A stretch of DNA of 64,000 nt, taken from positions 12,606,001 to 12,670,000 of the forward strand of contig NC_092573.1 of assembly GCF_037975245.1 (NCBI RefSeq). Reading direction: 5' to 3'. Positions 5,101-49,365 of this stretch are shown here, in pieces. The notes below the pieces were generated by a model, which was not told where the DNA came from, did no database searches, and saw only the letters and a list, made by a program, of their open reading frames with translations. Position 1 is the stretch's first letter, and the number at the start of each line of letters is the position of its first letter. The translations under genes were made by a program, and so were the position numbers. The DNA is from Apostichopus japonicus (lineage: Eukaryota > Echinodermata > Holothuroidea > Aspidochirotida > Stichopodidae).

Positions 5101-8100
5101 GTTTAGTGAGTAAACACCCCTGAGGTTTATGCCATAATTGAATGGTACCTGGTGAAAACTTTTTGATATCATATCCAGTTAAGTAAGACTAATTTAACAC
5201 AAAAATTGCAGCTCAAATATACCAGACAATTGAAGTAGAAAAAAATAGAAGAAAGCAACAACCCACCACAAATGGATATGTTGATATGGGGGAATGCCTT
5301 ACTCCGCACAAGCATGGGGAGTGTATGAGGGGGGGATGCCTTCCTTAAGCATGATACATGGGATTGGGTATGTGGGAAACGAAAGACAAAGAGGGATAAA
5401 ACAAAGTACCTGTATTTGTCCCATACGTAGCTGGCTGGGCAAAAGCACTTTGTTGATAGACAGAGTGGGGTGTTGAGCCTGCCTGAGTCCTGCTTGGTGG
5501 TTGGACCTAAAGACAGAAAACAAATGCTTTGGATAAGTTACAAATACTACATGCTATCCAATATCCAATGGTTCTTGCTCTACAGCTCTGGTATTCAAAC
5601 ATTTTCACCTACTGACAACAATCTCCACCATCATCGTCATCTCTGCGACTCTCCAGTGGCAGATGTCTCAGCCAGGGGGGGGGAGGAGGGGGGTAAAGGT
5701 CTAATGGGACAAAGTATCCCCCTCCCACTTGGGAAATCTTTATACAATTTTAAGGGGCGGGGTGATAAGCTGAAAAAAATGTTGTAGTTTTCTAACTTTT
5801 GAAGTTAATTTATGTTAAAGATTTTACCTCAAATATCAGCAAATTCTTTTCATTTCGAATTTTGGCAACCTTTGAAAACCCCTCCAAAAAGCTTTTGGAG
5901 CCCTAAAGAGGGCAGCAATACCCGCTTTGAATAGCAGGGCTTAACATTACACATAAAATGTTAGTGGTTAAGTGATGAAAGACATGTTTTTGACATTTAT
6001 ATTAATTGCATGCCAAAAATGTAGATAAAAAACTTTCATATTAATGTACATTTTCTTCTGTGCCGGCTTAAATATTGTCAACTTAATAAATACGGTGTTG
6101 AGGAAGCTTATTTTCAACTGCCGATGAAAACTTGACCAACCTCACCCCTGAGAGAGCTAATTTAAATAGTAGACAAGAGTTTGCAATTTGGGAACCAACT
6201 GAGAAGAATTACAAACCGTGCTGACAGCTGGGAACACCGGGTACGACAATCCAGGGGGTAAAATGCTGGCACCAGGGTAGGCTAAACCACCATAGGGTAG
6301 ACCTCCATAACCAGCTGTAGGGTAACCTGGAGGCAATGTCGGGTTCAAGAAAGGTGTCTGTGTTTGAGCCTGGGTCTGGTGATGTCCTCCCGCTAAGGAA
6401 TGAAGAAAGTCTAATGATGTGACCATGAAGTGAGGCAATCAATCATTAATTTGATAAATATCAATTTAAAGGTTTCCCTGGGAGTCAAATTTGAAGCAGT
6501 TATTTGTATAATTTGGTAACCAATTTGGGGCAATTCTATTGACAACTTTGAGCTATGAAACGTCATGAAACTGCTAATGCTTGTTATCAAGTTAAGAAAC
6601 CCGCTTTGAGTTTTTTTAAATACTAACTTGACTTAGTGAGGGGACTTGATGATTTTTCCATTTGATTCCAAGGATCTGTCACCTGTAAACTTGTGTTTAT
6701 CACATGACAAGATTAAACTGTTTTAGTTTGAAAAAAACATGACTAGTACTAAAACCTTTAACCTGCATTATTACTAGATACAAAAAGTCAATACAAACAG
6801 AAATTCAAAATTAACACAAACAGCTTCTTTAAGATGCTGGCTGTACATTATCTTATGCTGGTTGTACATCTTATCATAAACTATTCATTTTGTTTTGTCC
6901 TTTTGGGACCAACCTGATACCTTTCATGTGTAACACCCTGTTTCTTAACATTTTAACACAACTTCACAAGAGATATGTGCAAGCTCTTATCTGGCATGAC
7001 CTTACAATGACTAAAAACATTCTTTGAATGACTTTTCCATGTTGCTCAATCAACCAATGAAAGATTCTGGTGAAAGTTTGAAGATGCAGGAGGAAGGAAC
7101 AATCAACTCTCCCTAAGCTATGGTACCATTTGAGTTCCTATAACATACAACAATATTTACTCTTGGCATTTCATGCATCAAGAAGAAACTTAGAACACAC
7201 AGGCTTGGCAAAACGATGTTAAATCAGAGAAACTGAGTTCTTCATATGATCTCAGAAGAACGAAAGTCATAGAATTGATCTCATCATTTTTAACATGACC
7301 TTCAAAATCCCAAATCTGGCACGACAGATGTAAGACAGGGTGGTCCAAAATTCCTGGCTATAATGTGACCATAACCGTGTACTTTGGCCCAACAGGTTTA
7401 GCAAAGTATCTAGATAAATCAAGTATCAGCTTCAATCTTCCATCTAGCCATGCAGACTGTGTACTTTATCTAATGCTTTTGTACTCATGCTACAAGTCTG
7501 CTATGTTTTCCCGGTACTCATTTTCATAGTTTTTTACTCCATCTCACAGCATTTTGGAAAGTTAGTATAGTTACTTAGCGTAAGATTTGGTACTCGTACT
7601 TGCACTAAGAGAGCCTTGTACTCATGACAAGGGGAATTCTACTTGTACTTAAACTGATCCTTCTATACTCATGTCATAAGTCTACTGAGTATCTCAAGGT
7701 ACTCATTTTCATAGTTTTGTACTCCATCTCACAGCATTTTTGAAAGCTAGTATAGTTACTTAGCTTAAGATTTGGTACTCGGACTTACACTAATAGAGCC
7801 TTGTACTCATTTCTACTTGTACTTTAACCGATCCTTTTGTACCGATGCTATAAGTCTGCTGTGTATCTCACAATACTCATTTTCATATTTTTTTACTCCC
7901 TCTCACAGCATTTGGAAATCTAGTACAGTTACTTAGCGTAAGATTTGGTACTCGTACTTGCACAAAGAGAGCCTTGTACTCATTTCTACTTGTACTTTAA
8001 CCGATCCTTTTGTACCGATGCTATAAGTCTGTCGAGTATCTCAACCTTTTCTATAAAACAGGTCAACTCTCCTGTCAGATCCCTTTTATATAATAATAAT

Positions 8101-11100
8101 CATAATAATAATAAATGCAAATTTATATAGCGCCAATATCCAGAGGAAAACCAATGCTCAGTGGCGCTAGTGCTAAGGGAAGGCAGTCAAGAATAGATAA
8201 GTATTGAGTCTGTTTTGAAAATGTTAACGTTGGGTGCCGAATTGATGTGCAGTGGAAGTGAGTTCCAAAGAGTAGGAGCGGCATTAGAAAATGATTGTTG
8301 ACCAAATGACTTGAGCTTCCACTTAGGTACATGGAGCAATAGCTGATTAACTTACCAGCTTGTTGTTGTTGCTGCTGCTGCTGCTGGGATGACAACGAAC
8401 TGGCGACAGGTGAGGCAGCGTCGTTGCGGGTAAACTTGCTAGCTTCCGTCACGGAATACTGGGCTGTATTGGACAGAGGCGTAGCATCCCGTCCAGTATT
8501 CAAGGTGGTGGCAAGCTGCTGGTATTGCTGCAAATCATATGGATAACCCTACGTTAACGAGAAAAGAAGATCAAAACATTACCTCTGACATCAAACCTGG
8601 CAAATGTTTCACGACACAAAATTAGATTCGGTTATCTATAATTATACCCTCAATAGGCTCAAAACTATTAGTTCTAATTTTATGTAGAGAAAGGATCTGA
8701 AACGTCAAAATCATGTACGAACAGCATCACAGCTGGACTGTAACACTGGCACTGTTTGTGAAGATCTCATTGAAATATCAAATTTCATAAGTAGAGCTAT
8801 CTACTGGACATAAAGATGACACAAACATTCAAATTATTCAGTTTTTAAGAAATTAAAATATAACAATAAATATGTCAAGATGCTCAATCAGAGAAACAGA
8901 GTTCTTCATGTGATCTCAGAAGAACGAAAGTCATAGTATTGATCTCATCATTTCGAACATCTGAAACGAAAGGTGCAAACTAGAAGTTTTCCCGAAATGT
9001 TAGCACGATAAAAAAAATTTAAAAAGGGGGCAGCGTGTTGCATTTCAACTGTATTTTGTGCCTAATCTGACAGACTCTGGTACATCACACCTTGTAATTG
9101 ACAAATTCCAGCAAATAACTCCAGATTTAATTTTTAGGGTCTAACTGATCTAAACAAATGGTTGATTTGCTTTTATTTGTTACAACTCTTTCTTTATCTG
9201 ACAAAGGAACCTTGATCAGGTGAGCATAACAATCCTTCTCAATGGAACTAACGAGTGGCAAACCATGTCTTCAATACCACATTTTTAAGTATTTCAAAAA
9301 GCTTCCGATCATCAGCTATCAAAGACTGTTTCCACACATTCAAACTTTTTCAACTTTACAAGAACAACAGTGAATATCAATTTCAAGGATTAAACAATAA
9401 CCAAAACTGCTTAGTGATTGTTGTTTAGGTTCAGATTCTTCTCATGTTATCATCAAATGGACAAACTTCTCAGAATGTGACATGTCGATCTCGTAAAATA
9501 ATTTTGCGAATCACAAATGGAGCCTTTGCCAAAGTAACCCTTTGTGTATTCTTGACTGATTGAAGAAGGGCAAGGAATCCAGTTGACAGGAGTAGTTGTT
9601 GTTATCTCTTTAGGTTTAAAAAGACTAAAGTTCCATATATCCTAACTCACCATCGGTTGTTGCATTCTCTGTAGCATCAAATCTTCAAAGTTGTAGAACT
9701 GATGTGCCTGATAAAGAAGTAAACAACATGTCAGTAAATTTTTTAAATTCTTGAAAAGTGACATGCAACCTTTGGCACCTGCACACCCATAGTACCAGGA
9801 GAAATGAGCTATGCATACTCATCTCATTTAACGACTCAACGGCGTAGATTTGTGACTAGTTCTAGGGCAGGTTACAAAGGAATGGCAATCAGTCTTAATC
9901 TCATTACTAAAATTACACTCTATTCTGACAACTGCCCAACCTCACACAAGTGCTACATGTTGTCTTACTTCTTATGTCGATCATTAAAGAGTTAGTAATC
10001 CACAATATTATTTTACAAAGTCAAGATATAGGAAGCCCAAGCCTCCATTAGATGGCCAAGGTATACCGTTACCCTGATTACCACATAAACAAGCTACAAG
10101 ATTTAGCTTCAAATGCAATCAATTGTCATCTATGTGGTTGGTCTGTTTGGTAAGGTAAAACATTATGTGTAAATGCTTGCTTGCTATGTCAAGAGTGCAA
10201 AGTATCTACTCTGTCCTACTTGTGTGTTCATGATTCATCTCTGTGTAACAAATCTTGAATCTTAAAATCAAGAATTAACCTCATGTAGTTGGACACCTCT
10301 ACATCAACACAACTATTGCCTCATTTTATATGAAGTTACTCTGTTTCCCCTCACATTCCCCTCTCCCATTCCCTACCATCACCCCAACCCCTTCTGACAT
10401 CCTCCCCTTCCCCCTCATGCCATCACCCCCCCCCCACCTGCCATCTATCCCCAACTCTTTTTCTCAAGTCTACAATGCACATACATTAACATTGGAAATG
10501 AATTGAAATACTACAGTCACCACCAGACACAGGCTTCAACAACACATGTTTCAATCAGAGAAACTGAATTCTTCATATGATCTCAGAAGAACGAAAGTCA
10601 TAGAATTGATCTCATCATATTTTAACATGTGTAAATTTAAATTCAAGTGCTGATCCTTACATGGTAATTACAGTGCAACATTTCATTAATCCTTTTCCAA
10701 GCTCCAATATTTCTCGATTTTACTATGAAGACCAAGGGTCTTTACCGACAATATCTCAGATGATGTATTTCGGTAACTTCTACCTTGGGCAGACTTGTTG
10801 TTAATGGGCAAAGAAACAAACACTGCATGTTCTATTACTTTACAAGCATGAAGGGAAAGAAACCTATTTATAGAAAGAAGCTTCACACTCCAATCAGCTT
10901 AGAAGAACCACTTCAGCATTTTTTCAGTGAGGCACAAGTGTTCATTTGATAAGCAGCCGTTTGTAAACGGTTCACTTTTTCCTGTCAATTTTATCCTCCA
11001 GAAATTTATCCTTCAGAAAGAGTGTGACTCATATTAAAACAGATCAAACTGTTTGACACTGCTAAAATATTTAACTAAAACATCAGTTAATGGAGAAAAG

Positions 11101-14100
11101 AACTGACTCCACTTGATTCTAAAATGTTCATGAAAAGATATACATCCAAAGCAAAAGTACATTTAGACTCAGGAAATGACTAAACATTGGTTATTTCTGA
11201 TTTTTCATCATCATTATCTGGAATACAAATCACCTAGAACATGTCAACAAACTTGCACCGTATTCAGATTTTCAGTTCCAGATTGTATGGAAATTTGAGG
11301 TGGGAAGAAAATAAAAGCCCTCTTCAAGGGATTAAAACATTACGAAATAAACATCAAACTCACATATGCATTGACTGGAAGTAAACCATGCCCACCCATA
11401 ATCAAGTGATGGTTGACAAAAGGCATTCCTGGAGGCAAGTTAGGCGGCACCTTATCTGGAGAGATAAAGACAAGTGTAGACCTCAGTCTCGACAAAGTCA
11501 AACAAAAAGTTGTATGTTTCAAAGTATGTAAGACAGTCACTAACTTTAGGTTGTGATATGATTAGATCACAATAACAGCATTACTCAGTATACAGCTCAA
11601 ACATTCTACGGGAGTTGGCATAATGACTTCTTCTTTCATCTCAACTGAAAATACTATGTTCTGCAGTCAACACAATGAAGTGAACAAGACCTGCAAACCA
11701 TTTTCCAAATTTCCAGGCATTTTCATTCAATTTGAAAGAAGTAAGCACTACATTTCTTTCTCAACAACCCATTAAAAGCAATGGATAAATATCCGTTGCA
11801 AAACGATGAAACCTTATGATATACATAAGATTTTTCATGAAGGCAGTTTTTTGTGGATGTGCACGATGTCCAATCAGAGATCAAATCCTCTTCACGTTAA
11901 CTTCAGAAGAACGAAAGTCATGATTTAGTCTCATCATACTGGCTCTCCACCGACCGCACGCATTCATGAAACGGCAAAAGAATGATTCCTTCTACCTCAA
12001 TTTGTGCCTGGAGAATCATCGTGATTTAAAGACACGACTCTTTGTCTTACACAGTAGTTACATAAAACGAAACACCAAGCTGAATTTCATGTTTATCTTT
12101 TCTTTAAAACAAAGGTTATATTATTTTAACAAAGAGAATTGTAAATAATTTGAAGATTTATGTTCAAACAGTTTCTTTTGGGCTTTAAATGTGATGGATT
12201 ATACCACTGTAGAAGTCATGGCTGCAAACTTGACAAGTCTAACTTCTCAGCACTCATTAATTAGGTGTAAAAAAGAACCCAAGATGACTGAGAAACTATA
12301 TCTACACTTGTACTATTGTTTAAAAGATTGTAAGACCACATTTAAATCGTCTATATCTGTAAGCTGAATTAAGTCTGTATGGTAACCCATCAATACTTGT
12401 TTATTTCTTAGGTAGAAAAAGAACTGGAGATAACTAAACTGTGACCAGCTGCAACTTTAGCATTATTGTAAATTTACTTGCCCCCATGTATTTAAAATAT
12501 GGCAAACATCATTTCACTAAAGAGGGTCCAAAATTGGAGTCTCAAATATCTTTATATGGTATAAGATTTGTAAGACCAAATTGACATGGTGTGAAGTTAC
12601 ATGTCAACTGACTCCTTTCTATAGCTTTCAATGTAACCAATTTCCAACAAAGGTCCCATACTCAAGATTTCTTTATTCAAAATGTTTTCAAAAACTTACT
12701 TGACGGTTTGATACCACTTGAGGATATAGAACCGGACACCGACATAGACGTACTGAGAGCGGAGCCTATGTTTGTGGTAGATGGGAACCCTAGAGGGGTC
12801 GATGAGGTGGACGCTGACGAGAGAGTCGTTGCAATAGCTGAAATGGATGAGGTGGACGTTGTCGAGACACTTGCGCTGCCGTTCACTGAAGAAGGCCCTG
12901 AATCCAGGCCATGCTGAAAAGGAATCAGTCAAGTTCAATAGGACTTGCATGGGAATACAGAGAGGGTGTGGGGCAGGGGGAAGGGGAGAGAGATACAGGA
13001 AGAAAACAAGTGAATGAAAGTAGGCTTCTATGAAGATTGATAACTTGCCCTTTTCTTAAAACAATAAATTTATGAGGTGGTTAAATTTATCTCGCACCTC
13101 TTAAACACCTTGCTAACACAAGTCTTATCATAGTGAACTAGTAAGTTTAGCTTTTATATCTACCATATGATCTGAACATATAGGCTTAATTGCATGAAGG
13201 CTACGAGGACAAGTTAGCCAAAATTTAAAAGTTTGTAAATGGAGATATGAAACTAAATCCATATGAAGAGATATCCAAATGAGAATTTTTCCACACTTTC
13301 CAAACTTAACCTGGTGCACATTCAAGACTCAGAAAAAAAGCTATTCCTTTCCCCTACTTTTGCTGCTGGACATTTTCCCATTTTCAAGACTGCGTAGAAA
13401 CCATGTCACAGGTAATCGCTTCTAGATGTTGCAGCGCAAGAATACATGTACAGATCTACGGAAATGACCGACGCAACATTGCATCAGGATACAGGAACAA
13501 TGTACTCTGTATGAAATAACACTGCAGCTCTTACCTGGGATGGTCTTGTTTCCATCGGCCCTATCTTGGTGTTTGAGAGAGGCGATGTTTGCACACTTGT
13601 ATGCGTCGACTGAGACGCGTTTGCACTTGATACGGAATAGCTGGAGCTGTTTGACGAGGGCAGCGGGCTGAGATTACTCGAGGATGAATAACCCAGAGAG
13701 TTCGTTCCAGCACCATTGATCACACTGGTGGCACCCATGGAAGTGACACCGCCTAAAGAGTTCGATCCTACTAGTGAGTTACTGCCTCCTAGAGGATTTG
13801 CACCTATCGTACTCGCTGGGCCCATGGAACTCGGTGCCCCCATGCTCCCACCTAGTGACGACGTCCCCGTTGAAGACAGCCCCGTGCCGAGTCCACCACT
13901 GGACATTGCGGGGTTCCCGTAGCCAGGGATGCTGGAACTGACAGTTACGGCACTGCTGGGGGTTCCATAGGAACCAGCCTGAAATGAAAGAGGAATTGAT
14001 ACTATATAAATAGTATAGTGCATTTTATTTATATATATGAAACTGAAAAGTATAGGAAAATGATAAAAAAATAAAAAAAGGCGTCTCAAGGGAAGACCCT

Positions 14101-17100
14101 CCTGCTCCACCCCACTGGGGATTAGGATACCATCAGTCACTGGTTCTTTTGATTTTAATGCCCTTGTTTATCATCCATTCTGTGCACCGCCTCATAAAAT
14201 ACCTGAAATCCCTCCCTCCCTCCCTTCCACATAGTGATTGCTTGGTTACTGGTTTTTAAGATGTCCTAATGAAATGTCCCACCTGTCGGCTCGTAGATAA
14301 CCCTTGACCTCCTGGTAGTCCATATCCGGTAGAGGGCGGTAACACACTCGTTGAAATACCAACTGATGAAGACAGTGTGGTGGAATCAACAGCACCTGTG
14401 ATGGCAAATTTCAAAGCAGCTTCTTTTAAGTTTTTAACTTCTTTAAGTTTTTAACTTCCTTTTGTTTTAAATTTTTAACTTTTTTAACTTTGATCGGCAA
14501 TTTTGCCCGACCTTCCAAGTATTACTGAAAATGAGACTGCAATTGATCACACTGAGGCACTCTAACACTGAGGCACTCTCACATTGAGGCACTCTAACAC
14601 TGAGGCACTCTCACATTGAGGCACTCTAACACTGAGGCACTCTCACATTGAGGCACTCTAACACTGAGGCACTCTCACATTGAGGCACTCTAACACTGCG
14701 GCACTCTCACATTGAGGCACTCTCACATGGAGGCACTCTTCTGGATTTTTAACACTACAAAGAAAGGTTTTAATAAATGAGCAAGCCATTCAAGAACTAT
14801 TGGTAGCATAGTAAAACACCACAGTGAAATACTACTTAATGAACTTAATTGAAATGAAATATTGATCAAAGATAGTATCAGAGAAATTCTCAAATAAATA
14901 TTTGTATTTTTCAAAGATGTTATATTGTGACATTTACTAAATTAAGATTGTGAAATATGATGCTTTCAGAATCACAGCATTATGTACAGCTTCAAATGTT
15001 TACTCCCAAAAGTTATTTCTTTTTTGTCTCAACTAAAAATACTGTGTTCTGCAGTAAAACAATGAAGTGAACAAGACCTGCAAAACATTTTCATAATTTC
15101 CAGGCATTTTCATTCAATTTGAAAAAAATAAGCACCACACCTCGTTCTCAACAACCCATTACAAGGAGTGGATAAATATCAGTTGCAAAACAATGGAACC
15201 TTTAGCTGAGTTTTAAGGAATGATATACACAGGATTATTAATGAAGGCAAATTAACGGTCTGAAATATCCTGTCAAGAATTTTTGTGGTTTGGCCCGATG
15301 TCCAATCAGAGATCAAATCCTCTTCACGTTAACTTCAGAAGAACGAAAGTCAAGATTTATTCTCATCATACTGGTTCCCCATCGACCGAAAAGAAATGCT
15401 TCCTGTTACCTCAACTCAAAATTCTTCCTTCATTAAGGTAGTGTTTTCCTTAAATCTTAAAACCATGTTATCTTCCTTAAACTATACTCGGTAGTATGTA
15501 GCTTCATTTTGTATCAACTTCCCTTTGTTCCAGATGCCAGAGAGTCTAATATGTTCACCATTTCTTACATTCCTTAAAGACAACATTTTTCTTGAATGCC
15601 AATTTAGGAACAATTATTACTGTATGTAAATTTAATATCCAAGTTTACTGTGCTTAAGAAACCCATTTTCCTTTTCTAGGTTTCGAATCTATAACAACGA
15701 ATTACGGCGCCTCAGGATTGCAGCAAATTCAATGCAAAAATCAATCAAAGTTACACTATTGCTTAAGAAAATGGAAACCTTATCCACTCTGTGTAGGCAG
15801 TCAAGATTGAGGATAAATTGTCCTTACTTTCAATTGGACCATTGCTTGCTGTCTTCTGTCCTCCCATGTACTGTGAACTTTTTAATTCACTCTGTGTCGG
15901 GAGAGGTATAGGATCTGGGGCAAGCTACAAACAATAAAACGTGGATGGAAAATAGAATTAACAATTACTGGCCGAGATGAATATCATATGAACATGAATA
16001 TAAGTCAGACAATTTCAATGAAACTTGCTTTGCTTTTACATTTTCTTCTCAGGTTAATCCACTGACTGATTAAAGTACCTGTTATGGCACATTTTTGGTG
16101 AATAGATGTACACTGTAGGAGAGATGTGTAGGTTTGGTGAATAGAACACCAATATGTACACTGTAGGAGAGATGTGTAGGTTTGGTGAATAGAACACCAA
16201 TATGTACACTGTAGGAGAGAGATGTGTAGGTTTGGTGAATAGAACACCAATGTGTACACTGTAAGAGAGATGCGTAGGTTTAGTGAATAGAACACCAATA
16301 TGTACACTGTAGGAGAGAGATGTGTAGGTTTGGTGAATAGAACACCAATGTGTACACTGTAAGAGAGATGCGTAGGTTTAGTGAATAGAACACCAATATG
16401 TACACTGTAGGAGAGATGTGTAGGTTTGGTGAATGGAACACCAACATGTACACTGTAGGAGAGATGTGTAGGTTTGGTGAATAGAACACCAATATGTACA
16501 CTGTAGGAGAAATGTGTAGGTTTGGTGAATAGAACACCAATATGTACACTGTAGGAGAAATGTGTAGGTTTGGTGAATAGAACACCAATATGTACACTGT
16601 AGGAGAGATGTGTAGGTTTGGTGAATAGAACACCAATATGTACACTGTAGGAGATATGTGTATATTTGGTGAATAGAACACCAATATGTACACTTTAGGA
16701 GAGATTGTAGGTTTGGTGAATAGAACACCAATATGTACACTGTAGGAGAAAGATGTGTAGGTTGGTAAACAGACCATCAACATTGTAGGAGATGACAATG
16801 TATCCCTTAACAGATTTGGGGGCATTTAGTTAGAATGCAATCTAATTTGATGTAAACAACTAGTCGTCTGCCAGACAACCTATCGTTGTGGTTGTCTGAT
16901 CCGAATCTTAGTTGTCTCAGATGACCAGATAACCATTGAAAATTTTCCCTGCTAGTAGTTCAATGGGCAAATATGATCTCATGAAGTCACTTAATAACAG
17001 AAACAATATACTCGATACAAATCAGTGATAAACCAACTGGTACATCTACTTGATTGAAACAACATCAAAATTCAGTTTGTTCAAATCAAATCGATTTTTA

Positions 17101-20100
17101 AACCAAGATGCCAAATCAATGCAACAATGAGTAGTCTCCGAGCTGGATGCAACAGTGCTTTACGGAGACAAATGTTACATTACCACCCCGACAAATTTTT
17201 TGTTTACCCTGTAAAGTATGTTGTACAACACAATGAGTGTGCTACCTCCATTGCATTTGACAAAATGTTTTCAGTCACTTTTCTGAGAGCCACCTTGACC
17301 TCCCATCTTTTCTAACCCACCACCACCTCTACTTCTACCCCCCACTTTCTCTCTTCCTGTTCCTAAGCAGTGCGTATTCAAACTAAGAAGCCATCTTACT
17401 TTTTGACTTGGAACGTTTTGGCCGTGTCCGTAGGCTGCTCGTACTGATTGGTCCATAGAACTAGCTGGCACAGAGGATGGAATGCTGTTTGACATCCGTG
17501 AGCTCCCAATGCCAGTTGAATAGGCTGAATCTGTGACCTTTGCATTATACGATGACATGTGACTTGCACTTGACTTGGTATCGTTCACACTGTAAAGAGA
17601 GAAAAGAAAAAAAGATCCCACTTTCATCAGATAATGATCAAACCCAGCTAACAAATCAAAGGCTTTAAAACTGCTACATTTACACACTATCCAGTTGGTA
17701 TTCCAGATAAACTCAATCATCAGTATACAATGACAACTTCAGAATAGACTTAAAGCATCTACATGCTTGAAATGTCTTAATATATAGCTGTGCTTGCTCT
17801 AGAGTCAATCCTTCACCCTGTGGGCAGATCCCAAATTGGGGAATATTTGTAGCATTTGTAGGGATTTTATCCACTCTGCATGTAGGGTGCAAGCCTCGAT
17901 TTAAAGTATGGTCCGTATAGTTTGGATCTTACCCATAGAGAATAATATCGATATACCATCATTACATAATGAAGCAACCATGGATGGTAAAAGTCAAACC
18001 ATTTGTGGACGACGGATCTTCGGGACGAAGCTTGGAACTTACCCTAGTTCATTTTTCTTCTGAATGCATCTCGATGGGGCCTCACCAAGTCATATTCCTT
18101 AACATATGTGTAGACCGAGGCTGCCAATATTGATGCTATTCATTCTACTTGTACAAAGGCCAAGTTCAACACCACTTTCATTTTTTTTGAAAACCAACTT
18201 TCTGTGCAAAAATTGTATGTGGAAATACCTCTTGAACTTCAGCTGAGGATATATGAAATGAGGGTAAACCTAAGATGTGTTTGTGAATGATTGAAGTTAC
18301 CTGAAAGCCCCAGATGATAAGTCTCCCTTCGATGACAGAGAGGACCCTTGGATTACTATCCCATAGTCTGTGATGGCAGGGTCAATATTGATATCCATTG
18401 CACCAAACTGGACGTCCAAAGGACCAAGGCCTCTTGCTGATAAAGGCATCTCCACTGCAGATGGGGGAAACTGAAAAGAACAACGGAACAACCATCCAAA
18501 CGAAAAAATGAAATGAAAAAATAAATAAATACCTCCATAAACATGCTAGGCAATTAGTACACACACTGTTAGGACCTACATAAACATGCTAGGCAATTAG
18601 TACACACACTGTTAGTACCTACATAAACCTGCTATACAATAAGTACACACACTGTTAGGACCTACAAAAACATGCTAGACAATAAGTACACACACTGTTA
18701 GTACCTACATAAACATGCTAGGCAATTAGTACACACACTGTTAGTACCTACATAAACGTGCTAGCTATACAGTAAGTACACACACTGTTAGTACCTACAT
18801 AAACGTGCTAGCTATACAATAAGTACACACACTGTTAGTACCTACATAAACGTGCTAGCTATACAATAAGTACACACACTGTTAGTACCTACATAAACGT
18901 GCTAGCTATACAATAAGTACACACACTGTTAGTACCTACATAAACGTGCTAGCTATACAATAAGTACACACACTGTTAGTACCTACATAAACGTGCTAGC
19001 TATACAAGAAGTACACCTACATAAACGTGCTATACAATAAGTACACACACTGTTAGTACCTACATAAACGTGCTAGCTATACAATAAGTACACACACTGT
19101 TAGTACCTACATAAACGTGCTAGCTATACAGTAAGTACACACACTGTTAGTACCTACATAAACGTGCTAGCTATACAATAAGTACATACACTGTTAGTAC
19201 CTACATAAACGTGCTAGCTATACAATAAGTACACACACTGTTAGTACCTACATAAACGTGCTAGCTATACAGTAAGTACACCTACATAAACGTGCTATAC
19301 AATAAGTACACACACTGTTAGTACCTACATAAACGTGCTAGCTATACAATAAGTACACACACTGTTAGTACCTACATAAACGTGCTAGCTATACAAGAAG
19401 TACACACACTGTTAGTACCTTGATAATCCTGATAAATAGTTTCTAATCCATTTTCTATTAGAAATTAAACATTTACTTTTTTACTTTTTTTATTTTTACT
19501 AATTTACTTTTACAAATTCTCTTACACAGGCTCTCTAGTGGATAAGCAGTTTGCTAACAGTTTTATTTTATTTAGAAATAAAACAAGGTAGAAACCAGAC
19601 AATGTGAATAAACTCTACAGTTAAAGATGTAGCCCCACACTGCTGATTACTCACCTTGCTGTTTCCAGGGGGGAGTTTTTTCCGGGTAGGTTTTGGTTGA
19701 TGATGGGTCCGAGGTTGTTGCGATGGTTGGCTGTTTGGCATTTGGGGAGCCCTGCTCAGAGATGACTGGACCTGGCCGGTACCAGCACTCATCTATCAAA
19801 AACAACAAAATCCAAATGCAAGCAATTACCTGACTATGAATGGCAAATATGGAAAACATCTTTTAGTTTACATCAGTTCATACCCTAAGGCAGCCGAGTC
19901 TTATCTAACGTGACAATATTCAGGTGGCCAGTATGACTAAATCACTGTGTATTTTGACTCTTGGCAATAATGTGCATAAAAGATGAGACATGAGGGTGCT
20001 TCTTGTTGTTATGATGGAAGTAAAAAAAAAACATGTTTTCATCAAGTTATTATAATATTTAGGCCTGCATTGAGGAACTGACTTCAACATCAATGTAGAT

Positions 20101-23100
20101 TAAAACAAAGAAATCCAAAGCTTTGGTGTAGTTTAAAAGGTGAATATTTTTGGAAACCACAATAGATAGATGTAGAAACATTAATAGCACACCGATTGTT
20201 TTCTATTGTCTTGGACTATGTTACATCAAACTTCAAATTCTGCACAAAGTTATCATTTAAACATTGGACAGCTGCGTGTTAGGACCATGGAGGAAACTCA
20301 ACGATGTCAGTTTCTTACCTGCGAAGAGGGCTTGGGTGGTTCTCCAGAGGGGATCGTAGGGGGTGTTTGGTAGGTCTGGAACTGACTGAAGATGCTGGTA
20401 TCTTCTTTGTTCGAGGAGACGGGGAGGGTAGATTGCGAGGCAGAATGCTGTGTGGAATTCCTAAACAGTTCTGCAATGTCAATGCTGCAAGTAAAAAAAA
20501 CAAAATCAGACATTAGTCTTAACTTACTACAAATGGGACAAAAATGTAGACAATTATAAAAACTAACAATGTCCATAACATTTTTTGGACCTGTGTGATG
20601 GTTTAGGTAAGTCACATCAACTTTGAAAACAATATATAATTCATAAATTTGATTGTGACATCGACAGGAGCTTTGTCCCGCATTAAATTTCCTGGTAAGC
20701 ATGCAAGCACTCTGCAAACCCAGGACCACTGAGACTATGTAACAAAGTTAATGCAATGGATATATAAAAGAGTTAACAACTGAGATGGGATAGAAGGTTC
20801 CTATTTTCTAACCATGTAGACTGATTTTTCAATTCAAGGGCATGGAAAACTGAAGCGAAGAAACCGCATCAATGGATAGTACAACATTCAGTGAATACTG
20901 CTACAGTCAGTTTATTTTACCAGGTGAACTAGTCAGAACAATGATTGTCATAAAATAATGACTGTAAGACAAAGAGATACTAATTTGTATTTCAACTTTC
21001 TAGCCATTTTTTACACATCTAGAATTGTTCTTTTTTATTCTGTTATTATGATTTCATAAGCGGGTGATCATGGTCATTCCAAACAATATAATACTGCTAC
21101 AGTCAGTTTATTTTACCAGGTGAACTAGTCAGAACAATGATTGTCACAAAATAATGACTGTAAGACAAAGAGATACTAATTTGTATTTCAACTTTCTAGC
21201 CAATTTTTACACATCTAGAATTGTTCTTTTTTATTCTGTTATTATGATTTCATCCCTTTAAACATAAAATTGAAAACAATGCAAAAAATATATAATGCCA
21301 TTTTCTTCAATGAAATTGGTTGGAAACAGTTATTCCAGCTTTTCATGTTGTGTCATTATTAGTTGAGATCATATTCAATGCACTCTCGAGCACCTACTTA
21401 AAGTCATTTTAGAATTTCTATGTTCTTTATTGATTGAAGAGTAAAAGTAATGTCAAACTCTGACACAATACTGTGGTATGTTTACCCTCTACCTCCTCCC
21501 CCCTTCCTGTTCCCCCACCCACCCCTCTCTCCTTCCCTAATAGGTGAGGAAGTATACCCCATCGTTACCTGCGAGTCATTTCAGGCATTCCTGTGTTCTG
21601 CTGGGAAACTGAAGTAGTGTAGATGGAGGTGGACTGGAAAGTGTCACTTCCACCAAAAGTTGCACTTCCCTCTTGGCTACTACGCCCTGGCGCATACGGT
21701 GCTGCCGGGGAGGTCGTTAGTGGCGGTTCAGACGTCGGTGGCGCTGCGTCGATAGAATTGGCGCCAACCTCATCAGCCGCAGAGGCAGTAAAGACTTGCG
21801 AATGGGTCAGCTAGTATGACAAGATAATAAAGTTGTTTTTTTAATTTCTCTAGAAAAATATCACCTGATAGTCAGCGATTGGCGCAACTCCCACATATTA
21901 CACACCATTTAACTAACATTGACATTGTCACCTACAATTGACTAAAGATTAAAGAAATGATCAATTTGCCCAATTTGTCAAGGACAAACAAATGTCAGTG
22001 GCCCAATTGACAATGCCAACATCACTGCAAATGGTGATGAAAGCCCAGAAAGAAGCAAGCAAAGAGCTAAGATCAACTTTGTACTAAAGATAGTTGATCT
22101 CCGTAACATGTACATATCCTTGTAAAACTTGAAGCATGGGTAGACTTACATCTCCCGTCCACTCTTCGGCACCCCAGTCTTCCTTCCTAGCTGATTGTTC
22201 AACGTCATCCCAATCTGTGTTAAAGAATATTCAGAGATTAGCGTCTAGTAACGACACAAAATTTCACCTACGGGTTACCAAGACTAAGAAAGTAGATCAG
22301 CTAAAGTTTCAGATACTCAACATCCTAAGTAATATATTGCCCAGAAATCTGAGAAAACCCCAGAGTTTGCCTTTCCTTTTGCTTTGAAAATTTTACATCT
22401 TTGCTGGTTTCCAGCAAATTGTTAGGTTTCTTCTGTGGAAGATGCAACTTCACGTCTGCTCTAGGGTAACCCCTCATCTTAACCACCATCCCTATTTCTG
22501 TACATTTTATAATACTGCCATGCACTGATGTTCTACAACTTAATACTGACCTCAGAAATCAACCATTGTCAGGTCAGTCCAGTTTCAAACTTAGTACATC
22601 TAAAGCAAATACTTTAAAGCAAGTAAGTCAATATTTTACAAGATCCCAATTCAAGCAAAATACACATTTGTTCAAAAAGTTACAAACTACAGATATGAAA
22701 AGATACAGCTAACATCATTAAAATCATAAAAGACAATATATTAACAACTATCAAACAATTTAAACGTGCAGGTCAACCAAATGTTACCCTTACTTTAATT
22801 TATCAAAAGCTCTAAAATGTTGGATATGGAAGTATGAAGCTTATCCTGTCATTCAATATTATGTTTGAAAGAACATCTTTTTGATATCCATAAAAGAAAT
22901 GAAGTAATGGGTTGAATAAAGGGGCCTAAATAAGGGTGTTGATGTAATCATCAACTTTATCCTACAGGAACAGTTCAGAAATATGACATTTCTTAAATGC
23001 TAAGATGCTGCAAAACAAAACATACAGTAAAATGCTTCAGCATTCACTCTCATTCTCTCTCTCTCTAGATCAATCCATAGATCGATTTATCTTAGAACCA

Positions 23101-26100
23101 TATCACTATCAAAATAAAGCGACTTACTCTCTTCAGGAGGATTTCTCCACACGTTATCTCCAGAATTGAAGGCATCGTTTTCTACGGGTTTGCTGTTGCT
23201 GTAAAGAAAGATGAGGAAAAGATTTATTTATCTCTTCACAAAGCTACATCACCTTAGAGATGATGCAAACCCTTCGCAAGTACTAAGAGAGTCTCCGATA
23301 AGCCTAAGACTAGCAATGCTGTTACTAACTTGACTCAAAAAACCATTTGGCCTGTGAAAAGTGTAATCTCTTCTCATTTACAACAATAGGCCAGAGGGTT
23401 TTCAAGTAAGTCGTCAATAACCGGCAAAGTGCAAAACAACTTCTGTCCAAAGCATATATTCAATATGAACTACAGATTAAGATAAAATGACAAAATAACC
23501 TCACACTCCCCCCCCCCCCCCTTCCACAAAGGAAAAATTTATAAATGTTTCGATGGTTGTGGGAGTCACAGATTAATTTTGCGTCTACATAAACAACCTA
23601 AGTGGACCACACATACTGGCCATGTTAACTCAATCTAAATCCTTCATTAATTTCTCACTTTAATCATAAAGATTTGCTCAGTTCTCTAAACTAATATATT
23701 TGGAATATTCCAATGGAAAGCATAACGAATATGACTTGCAAGTTCATCAAACAATCTAACTGCATTGGAGTACACCTTTACTTAATCTACTTCAACAAAG
23801 TACCAACATTCTCAAAAGAAAGAAATACTTACTCAGTGAAACTGGAATTTGTAAAGGATCGAGCTCCGCCGCCCCTGCTGCTTCTTGCTGGTCCGTTCAT
23901 TTCTGAAACAGAAAGCACAGAGTGAACCGTTTCTCTTAAAGAGTGGAGAGATCTTAACAGCTCTGGACAGCAATACCTCCCATTTCAATCAAAGAGCAGA
24001 CAGAGTGATTAGGATCCATCAGAAAACAAACCTTTTATTCCAACGAAGCAATATTTATAGATTATAATTCTATTCAGAGGAAAATTCTGATTGAAAGAAT
24101 TGTATGCCAGCTTTAATAAGTGATATTTTCACAAAGTAATATTTCTTTTAAGTTATTTCTTGGCTCATTGCCCCGAAAGGACCGAATTTATCACCAACGG
24201 TCTACACCGTCATTTGAAAATGCTGCTTGTCAACTGCAACTTCCCTTGGACATCATCAGGCCCATCGCTAGCTAAATTCGTTGCCAATCTGCAACAGATG
24301 TATGTTTGGACTTTCTCTGGACCTCCATTCTCTATGTCATCTTGGCCGGCAGTATAAAGTTCTACTTTAATTTGGTATTCAGCATTAAATCCAATCAAAA
24401 CTTCATTTATGGCCATGAAGTTCAAACATGGAGCCAAAAATCATATATTCTATATTTTGTTGAAAGATGATAAAAATTTCATATCAACGGTAGAATGTTC
24501 GATATAGGGAAACACTGTACAAACAACTTTAAGTAAAATATTCCTTCTTCACTTTTGTTGCAAGTCTTGAGAAGCACACCGCCAACGTTTGTGAAAACGA
24601 CAAGATCTGTGCTTCTAATAAAGGATACGATATCCTCAATGACACATGGGACTTATTCTTTGAGAAAAGCTACTAAAATTTCTAAAATATCATTGACAAA
24701 AAGCAAAACGATTGTGATTGTACATTAAAATAAAGTCCAAAGCTATTACATGCAGCATGAACACAACAACACTCTCATTAAACTTTTTATCATATCTTGA
24801 TTTTTAAGTTATGAGTTTCACTACATCACCCTAAAGTTATGTGCCTAAGTTATGTGAATAGAACTCACCACCGTTCCTTCGTCCCCTGCCTCTGCCGAAG
24901 TCTCGGTCTCCTCTGTACCTGTCACGACTACCTCCATCGTATTCTCTACCCTTTCCTGAAGAAAAAAGAGATGTACCAAAATACTGTCTGTGCACCATAG
25001 AGATCTTAAAAGACTTTGGAACAAAAGTGTTTCTGTGTACTTTCATAGCATATATAGTTTCCAGACAGTTCCTGGGACCCTTACCCCTCACCACCAAGTA
25101 TGATTTTCTCAAAGCACTGCAAGGAGAACAAGTAATACTCTCTCCTTTCCTTGGTTTCCCTCTTCAAGAAAAAACTATTTCCTGCAACATCAGTTACAGA
25201 AAATTTCACTTACCTCTTGCCATACGAGGAGGCAGGGGGCCACGGCCACCTCTTCCCTTTCCTCTGTAACCACCCTCCCTGTCACGGCGCCTATCTGGAT
25301 CCTGTCCTCTGTCCCTGCTTTCAGAGTCATTATTTTTGTCACGATCACGGCCACCCCTCCCCCGTTCCCTGTCTGGTTTACTCCCACGGGCACTGATGTC
25401 TAGGTCCGGGGAGTCCAGCTGAGCCTTGCCAGAACCTCCCTGTTGGTTCCTGAGCTTACTTTTCTTGCTGCTTGTGGTCACCCAACCATCAATCTGTACA
25501 AAGACATATATTGTAACAATTTTAAATACAGGATATCACTTGAAACACTATATATCCTGTGGTTATAAATATTTGGGGTTCTTACTCATCATCAAACAAG
25601 GTCAATTGAAGAAAACACCTCCTTATAGGGCCAAAGTACCACACTTTCAGCCAATTAACACCATTGTTACTACGAGAAAGAACTAAACTGTGAGACGAGT
25701 GGCCGCTATTGCTTTTATCAGTACACGTCTCCACGGACCTCGTCTTACTCTTGGATGTTTCTGGCAGGAGTAGTAAGGAGCATTTGAATTCTGTTTAGAT
25801 GCTTGGATTGCTTCACTTTGCATTGCATCAGTCGTTCCTTGAAATATTCTTCCTCCCTCTTCCACAAAAGGATGAGGAGAATGTCTTTACCAACTTTTAA
25901 CTTCAGTGACTTGTAACTCTTTCTGGCAGTCATACTCACGGATTTGTTTTCAGTTTCATCCCTCTCTAGGAGCATGTTGATGGCCTGTTCTGTGTCGTAG
26001 TTTGCATCGTACAGGACGACCAGAATCTCATCTTCTGTTCTATTTGTCAGCTCTTTTATCTGTTGGACCTGCTCTTTGATTTTGTCGTTATCCATTTCAG

Positions 26101-26660
26101 TACTGTCTGAATATATCATGTTGGCCAGTCGAATCTGTTCTGCTGTAGCCTAACAATCAAAATGAGATAGAATAATCTTGGTCAGATGCAACATGGCTGT
26201 TGACAGCTCTTTTAAAGTGGATATCGAGGGTGGTAGCAGGCCTCCACAAACTTTCTTAAAAACTACTTGTAATTGGCGAACACGACTAACCTTCTACCCA
26301 CCAAAACACAAAATTTCACCTGTCACTAATTTAATAACACTGTTTTAGTCCATGCCATATTTGCATAAACTTGTGTGTGAAGAAATACTAGTTCTGTGAT
26401 ATCCCCCCAAATGGAAGAAGATATTTCTGAGCTGTTTGGGGAGGGTGTTCATGACAGTTATTTCTTATTTCTCTCACATTACTAATGATGGTAGGGGTGT
26501 GCGTCTCTTTAAAAGTATCCCTTCCTTGGGTTCTTACCTTTTTACCGGCTGGGGGCTCTGCGGGTACAGGAATTGTGGGGGATTTCACATTCTGTGCTTT
26601 CTGTTGTGAGCCTTTATCCCTAGGGCCTCCGCCCTTGGTATTACTCTTTGTTGAAACCAT
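2035..26660 (-). CDS. UBAP2L: UBAP2L/UBAP2 (Lingerer) orthologue, 22 coding exons, 3' end unresolved
   Basis: Joined on the minus strand (5' to 3'): 26660-26538, 26149-25940, 25493-25214, 24955-24869, 23902-23833, 23198-23128, 22214-22150, 21810-21569, 20484-20319, 19792-19655, 18470-18301, 17589-17400, 15924-15828, 14395-14283, 13978-13535, 12913-12700, 11455-11364, 9707-9651, 8548-8356, 6392-6217, 5506-5410, 2118-2035. All junctions are GT-AG and the phases chain without conflict for 3,379 nt (about 1,126 codons; human UBAP2L is about 1,087 aa as I recall). Order: UBA-type domain (about residues 42-103), Arg/Gly/Asp-rich RGG region (about 112-257), the EDWGAEEW and SQVFTAS blocks (about 290-311), the conserved SAVEMPLS/VQFGAM block (about 485-515), a long Ser/Thr/Gly-rich low-complexity stretch, then the family blocks PPNLPPGMP, polyQ and FLNPTLPPGY. 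Family members bind RNA and ribosomes, associate with G3BP and nucleate cytoplasmic stress granules; that role is inferred by homology. It is also a snoRNA host gene (introns 14, 17, 18, 19, 20). UBAP2 versus UBAP2L cannot be separated because the vertebrate duplication is later. Confidence 0.95.
2119..5409 (-). other. UBAP2L intron 22
   Basis: 3.3 kb without recognised genes. It holds a C-rich stretch near 3120-3147, an AT-only low-complexity tract at about 3630-3750 and a G-run near 4261. No snoRNA box pattern was seen. Confidence 0.6.
3630..3750. repeat. AT-rich low-complexity tract
   Basis: About 120 bases made of T-runs, TTATT and AAATTT units with almost no G or C. Confidence 0.8.
5410..5506 (-). 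CDS. UBAP2L: UBAP2L exon 22
   Basis: 97 nt. In the phase set by exon 21 it reads VQPPSRTQAGSTPHSVYQQS then AFAQPATYGTNT. That composition fits the family C-terminus better than the longer overlapping open frame. Acceptor TTTAG, donor CAG|GTACTT. Confidence 0.8.
6217..6392 (-). CDS. UBAP2L: UBAP2L exon 21: FLNPTLPPGY block
   Basis: 176 nt. It encodes HHQTQAQTQTPFLNPTLPPG and a Gly/Tyr/Pro-rich tail, matching THHTTQQTFLNPALPPGY in vertebrates. The donor GTTTGT is weak, but the phase (0) fits the next exon. Confidence 0.9.
7216..7296 (-). ncRNA. Box C/D snoRNA copy 1 (UBAP2L intron 20)
   Basis: On the minus strand: an 8-bp terminal stem (ATGTTAAA with TTTAACAT, perfect), box C ATGATGA (7287-7281), D' CTGA (7255-7252) and box D CTGA (7227-7224). 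The D' guide GACTTTCGTTCTT is perfectly complementary over 13 nt to the conserved 18S rRNA segment AAGAACGAAAGUC. The D+5 rule picks the second A of the GAA in that segment, which I believe is human Am1031 / yeast Am974, the SNORD59 / snR54 site. It has the same strand as its host, as expected for an intron-processed snoRNA. The D guide upstream of box D has no target I recognise. Confidence 0.9.
7476..8046. repeat. Direct repeat array, about 180 bp unit, 3 copies plus a partial
   Basis: Copies are anchored by ACTCATTTTCATA near 7516, 7701 and 7875 and by AAGTCTGCTRTG-like starts. Each carries TAAGATTTGGTACTCG and TTGTACTCAT blocks. The unit length drifts from 186 to about 174. It is in UBAP2L intron 20. 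Confidence 0.85.
8090..8340 (-). mobile_element. CR1/L2-like non-LTR retrotransposon, 3' end
   Basis: Minus-strand conceptual translation contains SFSNAAPTLWNSLPLHINSA followed by an FKTD-type end, the usual C-terminal tail of CR1/L2-group reverse-transcriptase ORFs. The 3' end carries GGCGCTATATAAATTTG and a TTA microsatellite tail (8090-8115). It is in UBAP2L intron 20, same strand as the gene, and truncated at its 5' side. Confidence 0.75.
8356..8548 (-). CDS. UBAP2L: UBAP2L exon 20: polyQ exon
   Basis: 193 nt. It encodes GYPYDLQQYQQL, the conserved KFTRNDAASP motif (vertebrate KFGRGDASSP) and a nine-residue polyQ made of mixed CAG/CAA codons (8360-8386). The open frame that runs on to about 8123 is intron plus retrotransposon, not exon. 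Confidence 0.93.
8878..8962 (-). ncRNA. Box C/D snoRNA copy 2 (UBAP2L intron 19)
   Basis: Box C ATGATGA (8951-8945), D box CTGA (8891-8888) and a terminal stem AGATG/CATCT extended past one mismatch. The D' guide is identical to copy 1. The D guide differs from copy 1 by one base (CTCTGTTTC for CTCAGTTTC). It belongs to subfamily A with copies 1 and 3. Confidence 0.88.
9651..9707 (-). CDS. UBAP2L: UBAP2L exon 19 (micro-exon, 19 codons)
   Basis: 57 nt encoding AHQFYNFEDLMLQRMQQPM, the counterpart of vertebrate PQVYGYDDLQMLQTR. Phase 0 at both ends, so it could be skipped without a frameshift. Confidence 0.92.
10542..10632 (-). ncRNA. Box C/D snoRNA copy 3 (UBAP2L intron 18)
   Basis: Perfect 9-bp terminal stem (ACACATGTT with AACATGTGT), box C ATGATGA (10618-10612), D box CTGA (10558-10555). 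The D' guide is identical to copies 1 and 2. The terminal stem differs in sequence from the other copies yet still pairs, which argues for selection on structure. Confidence 0.9.
11364..11455 (-). CDS. UBAP2L: UBAP2L exon 18: PPNLPPG block
   Basis: 92 nt. It encodes KVPPNLPPGMPFV and a GGHGLLPVNAY tail, matching KAPPNLPPGVPPL and APGLLHAY of vertebrates. Phase 0 exit at TAT|GTGAGT. Confidence 0.95.
11580..11943. repeat. Intron segment duplicated between introns 14 and 17 (copy in intron 17)
   Basis: Partner of 14972-15373. The flanking coding exons are not duplicated, so only intron sequence with its snoRNA was copied. Confidence 0.85.
11869..11942 (-). ncRNA. Box C/D snoRNA copy 4 (UBAP2L intron 17)
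   Basis: Box C ATGATGA (11937-11931), D' CTGA, box D CTGA (11877-11874). It carries the same 18S-complementary D' guide. The D guide (GAGGATTTGATCT) is unlike copies 1-3 and defines subfamily B. The closing stem is short (CCA/TGG) with more pairing further out. It lies in a longer segment duplicated in intron 14. Confidence 0.85.
12700..12913 (-). CDS. UBAP2L: UBAP2L exon 17: Ser/Thr-rich exon
   Basis: 214 nt. It encodes an almost pure Ser/Thr/Ala stretch, like the Ser/Thr region before the PPNLPPG block in vertebrates. The other strand and other frame are also open here; those are shadows. Confidence 0.9.
13535..13978 (-). CDS. UBAP2L: UBAP2L exon 16: long Ser/Gly-rich exon
   Basis: 444 nt (148 codons), the largest exon. 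It encodes imperfect Gly/Ser/Met/Leu repeats around NSLGG and SSMG, a disordered low-complexity stretch typical of stress-granule proteins. Open throughout; acceptor TTTCAG, donor CAG|GTAAGA. Confidence 0.92.
14283..14395 (-). CDS. UBAP2L: UBAP2L exon 15
   Basis: 113 nt. It encodes a Ser/Thr/Gly-rich segment containing LPPSTGYGLPGG. It ends at CAG|GTGGGA, phase 0. Confidence 0.83.
14547..14740. repeat. 16-bp minisatellite (GAGGCACTCTMACAYT)
   Basis: About 12 tandem units alternating between GAGGCACTCTAACACT and GAGGCACTCTCACATT, a higher-order 32-bp period. It is in UBAP2L intron 14. Confidence 0.93.
14972..15373. repeat. Intron segment duplicated between introns 14 and 17 (copy in intron 14)
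   Basis: Aligns over about 380 bases, with indels, to 11580-11943. Shared stretches include AATGAAGTGAACAAGACCTG and TTTCCAGGCATTTTCATTCA. The duplication ends with the snoRNA. Confidence 0.85.
15301..15374 (-). ncRNA. Box C/D snoRNA copy 5 (UBAP2L intron 14)
   Basis: Box C ATGATGA (15369-15363), box D CTGA (15309-15306), D' guide identical to the other four, D guide identical to copy 4. An outer CGATG/CATCG pairing supplements the short CCA/TGG stem. It is part of the duplicated segment shared with intron 17. Confidence 0.85.
15828..15924 (-). CDS. UBAP2L: UBAP2L exon 14
   Basis: 97 nt. It encodes LAPDPIPLPTQSELK and a short hydrophilic tail, preceded by TTTGTAG and followed by A|GTAAGG. 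The intron after it (intron 14) carries a snoRNA. Confidence 0.82.
16095..16766. repeat. 48-bp minisatellite
   Basis: About 14 tandem units built on GAATAGAACACCAATATGTA followed by CACTGTAGGAGAGATGTGTA. Because 48 is a multiple of three, the array is open on the minus strand in more than one frame for up to 181 codons. This is a product of periodicity, not a gene. It is in UBAP2L intron 13. Confidence 0.95.
17400..17589 (-). CDS. UBAP2L: UBAP2L exon 13
   Basis: 190 nt. It encodes a Ser-rich low-complexity segment with no obvious domain. It is supported by acceptor TTTACAG, donor GTAAGA and exact phase restoration (2+190). Confidence 0.85.
18301..18470 (-). CDS. UBAP2L: UBAP2L exon 12: conserved AVEMP/QFGAM block
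   Basis: 170 nt. It encodes FPPSAVEMPLS, LDVQFGAMDI and ITDYG, aligning with ALAVEMPGS, LQFGALQF and LSDYE of vertebrate UBAP2L (the Pfam DUF3697-type region). This is the clearest family hallmark outside the UBA domain. Confidence 0.95.
18531..19420. repeat. 47-bp minisatellite
   Basis: About 19 tandem units containing ACATAAACGTGCTAGCTATA and CACACACTGTTAGTACCT. Units at the left end lack the GCTAGCTATA form (GCTAGGCAATTAG instead), and two internal units are truncated near 19015 and 19275, showing array turnover. It is in UBAP2L intron 11. Confidence 0.95.
19655..19792 (-). CDS. UBAP2L: UBAP2L exon 11
   Basis: 138 nt, phase 0 at both ends. It encodes a Gln/Pro/Ser-rich segment ending in a basic KPTRKKLPPGNSK tail, placed like the basic KQQKKK stretch before the VEMP block in vertebrates. 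Confidence 0.85.
20319..20484 (-). CDS. UBAP2L: UBAP2L exon 10
   Basis: 166 nt. It begins IDIAELFRNS, the counterpart of vertebrate RIDLAVLLG, followed by a Gln/Ser/Pro-rich part. A polypyrimidine tract precedes the TTGCAG acceptor. Confidence 0.9.
20894..21057. repeat. 164-bp direct duplication, copy 1
   Basis: Nearly identical to 21090-21253 (starts AATACTGCTACAGTCAG or ATACTGCTACAGTCAG, ends ATTATGATTTCAT), separated by 32 bases. A recent local duplication in UBAP2L intron 9. Confidence 0.92.
21090..21253. repeat. 164-bp direct duplication, copy 2
   Basis: Partner of 20894-21057 with only a few substitutions. Confidence 0.92.
21569..21810 (-). CDS. UBAP2L: UBAP2L exon 9: SQVFTAS block and Ser/Thr-rich linker
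   Basis: 242 nt. It starts LTHSQVFTAS, equivalent to LSETKIFTAS in vertebrates, then continues with a Pro/Ser/Thr-rich low-complexity linker. It leaves 2 nt (AG) for the next exon. Confidence 0.92.
22150..22214 (-). CDS. UBAP2L: UBAP2L exon 8: Trp/acidic block
   Basis: 65 nt. It encodes WDDVEQSARKEDWGAEEWTGD, matching the conserved (T/E)EDWxxEDW block of UBAP2/UBAP2L. It ends in phase 0 at GAT|GTAAGT. Confidence 0.92.
23128..23198 (-). CDS. UBAP2L: UBAP2L exon 7
   Basis: 71 nt. It encodes an acidic/Asn-rich segment with NVWRNPPEE, the counterpart of the vertebrate TSAWRTATEEW stretch. Acceptor TTTACAG, donor GA|GTAAGT. Confidence 0.88.
23833..23902 (-). CDS. UBAP2L: UBAP2L exon 6: end of RGG region
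   Basis: 70 nt with acceptor TTTCAG and donor A|GTAAGT. It encodes MNGPARSSRGGGARSF and a short Ser/Thr-rich tail, closing the RGG region. Confidence 0.9.
24869..24955 (-). CDS. UBAP2L: UBAP2L exon 5: RGG region continued
   Basis: 87 nt, phase 1 in and out. It encodes Arg/Gly/Asp-rich sequence including FGRGRGRRNGG. The donor is G|GTGAGT. Confidence 0.9.
25214..25493 (-). CDS. UBAP2L: UBAP2L exon 4: Trp motif and RGG region
   Basis: 280 nt, leaving 1 nt over. It begins IDGWVTTSSKKSK, the counterpart of the vertebrate SWEMVGKKK segment, and runs into an Arg/Asp/Gly-rich tract with RGRGG, RGGRD and GRGGRG motifs typical of RNA-binding RGG regions. Confidence 0.93.
25940..26149 (-). CDS. UBAP2L: UBAP2L exon 3: UBA-type domain
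   Basis: 70 codons, phase 0 at both ends. It begins with ATAEQIRLA, a near-exact family signature, and continues with the three-helix UBA pattern ending in DTEQAINMLLE. UBA domains bind ubiquitin. Confidence 0.95.
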
Positions 26661-26667
26661 TTGTGAA
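26538..26667 (-). CDS. UBAP2L: UBAP2L exon 2 (start codon exon)
   Basis: Acceptor TACAG at 26668 leaves a 7-nt leader before ATG at 26660-26658. It encodes 41 residues rich in Lys/Gly/Pro and ends at AAG|GTAAG, phase 0. Lys-rich N-termini ahead of the UBA domain are usual in the family. Confidence 0.85.

Positions 26668-43694: not shown

Positions 43695-49365
<5,671 letters not shown>

Follow-up and report, generated by a model that had tools for sequence, protein, structure and literature searches.

Paralogous box C/D small nucleolar RNAs (snoRNAs) in the introns of one host gene are a known pattern (PMC8178906), and one that is common in chicken (PMC2653536). Chicken HBII-108 (GNL3 introns 5, 7 and 9), human SNORD58 (RPL17) and chicken SNORD121 (UBAP2 introns 13 and 15) form such sets (PMC2653536, PMC8178906), and in sponges neighbouring introns carry duplicates of some snoRNAs (PMC3412847). 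Larger sets include five chicken GGgCD61 paralogues, with both intragenic and intergenic duplication (PMC2653536), and SNORD116, whose genes are repeated within a single host (PMC8162545). Here we analysed a 64,000-nucleotide (nt) stretch of the genome of the echinoderm Apostichopus japonicus (contig NC_092573.1, positions 12,606,001 to 12,670,000; hereafter the window), in which the introns of a predicted UBAP2/UBAP2L-type gene carry five box C/D elements. As in the HBII-108, SNORD58 and SNORD121 sets, there is one copy per intron of a protein-coding host, but those sets have two or three copies, compared with five here. An initial annotation of the window had called this an unusual dosage, which was not supported as stated: five is a high number, yet no different kind of thing.

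The five copies resemble SNORD59 (RF00273, clan CL00065; U59A and U59B in human), yeast snR54 and Arabidopsis snoR59 in their D' guide, target adenosine, box layout and size. One table row lists the site as human Am1031 (U59), yeast Am975 (snR54) and Arabidopsis Am975 (snoR59), in agreement with the Am1031 given in the initial annotation, and the same table includes a guide for this site among the C/D snoRNA sites attributed to the last common eukaryotic ancestor (PMC3511168). The host differs. Chicken U59, with one copy listed, is in ATP5B intron 2 (PMC2653536), consistent with the annotators' remark that the human guide has a different host gene, whereas the copies described here are in a gene of UBAP2/UBAP2L type. 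Vertebrate UBAP2 and UBAP2L already serve as snoRNA hosts, with SNORD121 and ACA40 in chicken UBAP2 and SNORA58 in UBAP2L (PMC2653536, PMC3511168); these snoRNAs differ from the SNORD59-type copies, although the host family is the same. The snoRNA and the mode of intron duplication are known, and what looks new is the choice of host and the large number of copies. Both human U59 copies presumably lie in ATP5B (ATP5F1B). Searches of the open-access literature, which covered SNORD59 papers in part and so give no proof that none has been published, turned up no report of SNORD59 in UBAP2 or UBAP2L, nor a survey of echinoderm snoRNAs among the listed titles on echinoderm or sea urchin snoRNAs. The locus gives an old guide a different host and greatly expands its family, in an echinoderm; beyond these two changes, its biology is that of ordinary snoRNAs.

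Five box C/D elements and their host gene

The five elements lie on the minus strand, which is the host strand, each in its own GT-AG intron. Copy A (15301..15374; coding intron 13) has its C box at 15369-15363, its D' guide at 15351-15339 and its D box at 15309-15306. Copy B (11869..11942; intron 16) has these elements at 11937-11931, 11919-11907 and 11877-11874, copy C (10550..10623; intron 17) at 10618-10612, 10599-10587 and 10558-10555, copy D (8883..8956; intron 18) at 8951-8945, 8932-8920 and 8891-8888, and copy E (7219..7292; intron 19) at 7287-7281, 7268-7256 and 7227-7224, respectively. The outer ends were inferred as 5 nt beyond the C and D boxes. All five copies have the C box ATGATGA and the D box CTGA, in line with the box C/D definition (C box RUGAUGA, D box CUGA). 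In each, the D' box CTGA comes immediately after the 13-nt D' guide GACTTTCGTTCTT and is itself followed by a C'-like TGAAGA, and the core from C box to D box is 64 nt long. Boxes and guide are invariant across the alignment of the five copies. By contrast, the half containing the D guide separates them into two types, with one version in copies C, D and E (type 1) and another in copies A and B (type 2).

The host gene was modelled from 26660 to 6268, with 20 coding exons starting from an ATG at 26660 and a frame that is open throughout. The model covers the coding part only and was ended arbitrarily within exon 20 at 6268; the gene continues towards lower coordinates. In the first 673 residues of the product, we detected the UBAP2-Lig motif (PF12478; expect [E] value 1.5e-8; 35.0 bits against a cut-off of 22.2) and an N-terminal UBA-like/GIP1_N domain (PF06972; 30.4 bits against a cut-off of 26.4). 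Because this motif occurs together with the N-terminal domain of the family, the predicted gene is assigned to the UBAP2/UBAP2L (lingerer) type. An RG-rich stretch in the N-terminal part of the protein was apparent by eye. Searching the genome with the joined protein sequence gave four matches above 17 bits, all within the host gene, and revealed no paralogue; two matches elsewhere (one other contig, 17.0 bits, E value 3.5) were taken as noise.

These results bear out the initial annotation, which had reported five box C/D snoRNAs, one per intron and on the host strand, in a UBAP2L-type gene, with intact C, D' and D boxes. Its intron numbers (14 and 17 to 20) did not hold: counted from the exon with the start codon, the elements are in introns 13, 16, 17, 18 and 19, and introns 14 and 15 carry none. 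A possible 5' non-coding exon would account for the difference of one.

The sequences beside the C and D boxes pair over 9, 10 and 8 base pairs (bp) in copies C, D and E, respectively, but pairing is shorter and interrupted in copies A (4 + 6 bp around an internal loop) and B (4 bp, then interrupted), which qualifies the pairing ends described earlier for all copies. The energies of the terminal duplexes were -7.4, -7.7, -11.3, -14.3 and -5.7 kcal/mol for copies A to E; as with the pairing lengths, these values come without a shuffled control. In copies C, D and E, longer end pairing may offset the non-optimal position in the intron.

Guide pairing with 18S ribosomal RNA

The genome's own 18S ribosomal RNA (rRNA; 1878 nt) holds AAGAACGAAAGTC once, at 1032-1044, and the D' guide is fully complementary to this segment in all five copies, as the earlier claim of an identical guide matching 18S had it. 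Under the D'+5 rule, the guide points to A1036, which corresponds to human Am1031. Each copy thus has the hallmark of the SNORD59/snR54 guide, namely at least 10 nt directly before the D' box that are complementary to 18S, with an A at position 5. Against 18S, the guide scored the maximum of 13, which none of 400 shuffled guides attained.

We also scanned both strands of the window for C/D elements with guides to 18S, 5.8S and 1051 nt of 28S rRNA. Guides of at least 12 nt were found in these five copies only; across 20 shuffled rRNA sets, the mean number was 0.00 at 12 nt and 0.15 (maximum 3) at 13 nt. The first scan had included a rule demanding a 4-bp stem, which was dropped from the main scan because it retained copy E only. 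One further candidate, on the plus strand (C box 63178, D' box ATGA, 10-11 nt), was dismissed as weak, with control means of 0.70 (maximum 5) at 10 nt and 0.15 (maximum 1) at 11 nt.

The window contains exactly five instances of the 17-mer GACTTTCGTTCTTCTGA, comprising guide and D' box, and allowing up to three mismatches added no further place (0.16 expected). No sixth copy in the window emerged from a model built on the sequences of the five copies alone (next match 2.3 bits, E value 9.7). The likeness to 18S rRNA might be put down to chance or low complexity. In the 671.6-Mb genome, the 13-mer alone is not rare: it has 112 places (88 of 100 listed ones in the ribosomal DNA [rDNA] array), compared with 33 for the reversed control, and when at most one mismatch is allowed the 17-mer occurs at 8 places, compared with 4 for the reversed pattern. 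However, the exact 17-mer is present at five places, these copies only, and the C box plus guide also at five, all at the host locus, with none for the reversed control. Given also the common 64-nt anatomy and the outcome for shuffled guides, an origin by chance is hardly credible. On inspection by eye, C/D boxes were absent from the three one-mismatch places.

For the 18S A1036 site, we could find no guides in the genome other than the five copies, as judged by these pattern searches; the copies would for that reason offer a clean test of redundancy behind one rRNA mark.

We consider it very probable that these are five paralogous, redundant box C/D snoRNA genes that belong functionally with SNORD59/U59/snR54, released from introns and guiding methylation of 18S A1036. 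This reading draws on the observed anatomy and intron position, the pairing with the organism's own 18S, the confinement of C box plus guide to this locus across the genome and the conservation of the A and B cores. From the sequence, we infer transcription, processing and methylation along the following lines. Splicing of the UBAP2/UBAP2L-type pre-mRNA would free introns with one snoRNA each; C/D core proteins would assemble on the C and D boxes and protect the element while exonucleases trim its ends. The D' guide, pairing over 13 bp, would then present A1036, which is fifth counted from the D' box, to fibrillarin for 2'-O-methylation, and five redundant RNAs would serve one conserved 18S methylation.

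The two types, with their diverged D-box guides, might in addition methylate extra and different targets. The D-guide half does differ by type, and the D guide shared by copies A and B is identical despite the drift of their flanks. Moreover, the D guide of copy C scored 9.8 against 28S at 146 (equalled by 10 of 400 shuffles), that of copy D scored 9.8 against 18S at 381 (17 of 400), and a cruder scoring gave D guides 8.0-9.5, compared with 6.0-8.0 in one shuffled control each. However, four D guides were tried, and these values are weak after correction; the guides of copies C and D indicate different places despite the near-identity of these copies; E (97 of 400) and A/B (86 of 400) have no target, and U2 and U6 did no better. 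Additional targets therefore seem improbable, and we found no convincing one in 18S, 5.8S, the 1051 nt of 28S searched (part of that molecule only), U2 or U6.

Classification, predicted processing and probable duplication history

Several observations weigh against five working SNORD59-type guides, beginning with Rfam. No hit was obtained in the window at gathering scores, and the five copies reached 31.6-38.4 bits, below the SNORD59 gathering cut-off of 45 bits (A, 37.4 bits, E value 5.1e-5; B, 36.4 bits, 9.9e-5; C, 31.6 bits, 2.3e-3; D, 38.4 bits, 2.7e-5; E, 35.8 bits, 1.5e-4). Such a cut-off is a curator's threshold and not a biological feature, and as the window gave nothing at those scores, this silence is no evidence against snoRNAs of this organism. 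By E value, SNORD59 was the best Rfam family for all five copies (2.7e-5 to 2.3e-3, 10 kb searched).

A genome-wide SNORD59 search, in which 60 of 153109 first-look candidates were scored, ranked the five copies first, ahead of a match at 27.2 bits (E value 0.62). It gave 13 matches at E values up to 10, none above the cut-off, and 10 of 14 control genomes likewise had matches at this level, none above the cut-off. The family RF01598 (snoR23) has the common guide ACUUUCGUUCUUCUG and gave higher bit scores than SNORD59 for copies A and B (42.2 and 37.6), but with worse E values (0.017 and 0.12) and below its own cut-off of 70 bits. On these comparisons, the five copies are likely homologous to SNORD59; because their SNORD59 scores are below the gathering cut-off, we classed them by function, as guides for this site. 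When 16000-27500 was searched with Rfam at E values of at most 1, three hits came up, each to an unrelated family and below its own cut-off.

A second difficulty came from a cruder 20-nt scoring, which ranked copy A first at a 28S site (11.0, with 10.0 for the shuffled control). This alternative site has one mismatch and is 3 nt off the D' box, and its top rank arose because that score penalises the G-U extension. We placed more trust in the exact match adjoining the D' box.

Further points concern folding and position. The fold energy of four copies was no different from that of shuffles (z scores -1.01, -0.67, 0.00 and -0.06), and only copy C stood out (-2.27). The minimum-energy folds of copies E and B lack the expected terminal stem and prefer other pairing. 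Across the five copies, the distances from D box to 3' splice site are 339, 418, 831, 847 and 910 nt, whereas the best position is described as lying some 50 nt ahead of the branch point, although SNORD116, for example, departs from it (PMC8162545); position in the intron is therefore a weak point of the processing model. Perhaps only some of the five become stable snoRNAs, the rest being decaying or poorly expressed duplicates. The non-optimal distance in all five copies, the short and interrupted pairing in A and B and the four folds no better than shuffles would fit this, as would the observation that members of a same-host family may differ in abundance (PMC8178906). Since boxes and guide are nevertheless invariant in 5 out of 5 copies and the core of A and B has been kept, we regard such partial processing as possible but rather unlikely, and favour five processed copies.

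Comparison of the introns indicated how the copies may have arisen. By blastn, the intron stretch with copy B (11498..11956, minus strand) matches that with copy A (14890-15388) over 514 columns at 75% identity. After realignment, the cores of A and B were identical at 62 of 64 positions and the flanks at 320 of 404, with 74 gap columns (Fisher p 2e-4). The cores of C, D and E agree pairwise at 60-63 of 64 positions, with a single difference between C and E, and their introns show local similarity over 82-104 columns only. Because the A/B block has drifted flanks, and because C, D and E have like cores with little shared intron, the copies were most likely made by duplication inside the host gene, with their cores kept. 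A first split into the two types (A/B and C/D/E) would have been followed by copying from intron to intron. Against this, 100-nt flank comparisons were similar for all ten copy pairs and gave no discrimination, and gene conversion, as well as selection, could keep the cores alike.

Spread as retroposed snoRNAs, instead of by intron recombination, would account for the likeness of C, D and E over little beyond the snoRNA itself, and SNORD59-candidate copies are reported from a repeated, putatively mobile element of Schistosoma (PMC8490949). It accords poorly with the long block shared by A and B, with the match between C and E, which continues for about 28 nt beyond the D box, with the lack of an A-rich tail by eye, and with the absence of C box plus guide from the rest of the genome. 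We think this route quite unlikely and retain duplication within the gene. A DNA search with copy D retrieved D, E and C only; as it missed A and B, such a search would overlook diverged copies.

Repeats are present in several host introns. The intron of copy A has a 16-bp minisatellite at 14547-14738, about 560 nt downstream of the copy on the host strand, and that of copy E has a repeat in four diverged copies at 7460-8086, spaced 173-185 bp apart. By eye, two upstream introns (16090-16780 and 18540-19420) have long tandem repeats, and within one host intron (20880-21290) a stretch of about 170 bp is present twice and nearly identical.

The host protein and features elsewhere

The N-terminal RGG region of human UBAP2L binds C/D snoRNAs, which help to link UBAP2L to G3BP1 in stress granules (PMC10104854), and it is this connection that makes the choice of host intriguing. 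The initial annotation had tied host and copies together through stress granules, a tie that was not supported as stated. The presence of snoRNA in granules is described as possibly very limited, and the snoRNAs tested there were SNORD44, 49A, 30 and 56 (PMC10104854). One could imagine a single locus making both halves of a ribonucleoprotein, with the five snoRNAs acting, besides guiding on 18S, as the RNA partner of the UBAP2L-type protein or as reporters of splicing output, but we hold this to be very unlikely. Broad expression of the host is enough to explain its choice.

Elsewhere in the window, open frames on the plus strand encode a mitochondrial-carrier domain (43029-43691) and a BTB_2 domain (49360-49959). 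In the rDNA array on contig C5, the 18S copies switch orientation many times. U2 small nuclear RNA genes form a tandem array on contig C16 (about 31.01-31.16 Mb), with copies often 645 bp apart. In keeping with an echinoderm, COX1 on the mitochondrial contig C35 has TGA, AGA and AAA codons in frame and yields conserved residues when translated with the echinoderm/flatworm code, and the order of the 8 tRNA genes detected by ARAGORN fits echinoids or holothuroids. COX1-like pieces at 14745-31219 of contig C29, outside C35, may be nuclear copies or belong to a second mitochondrial assembly.

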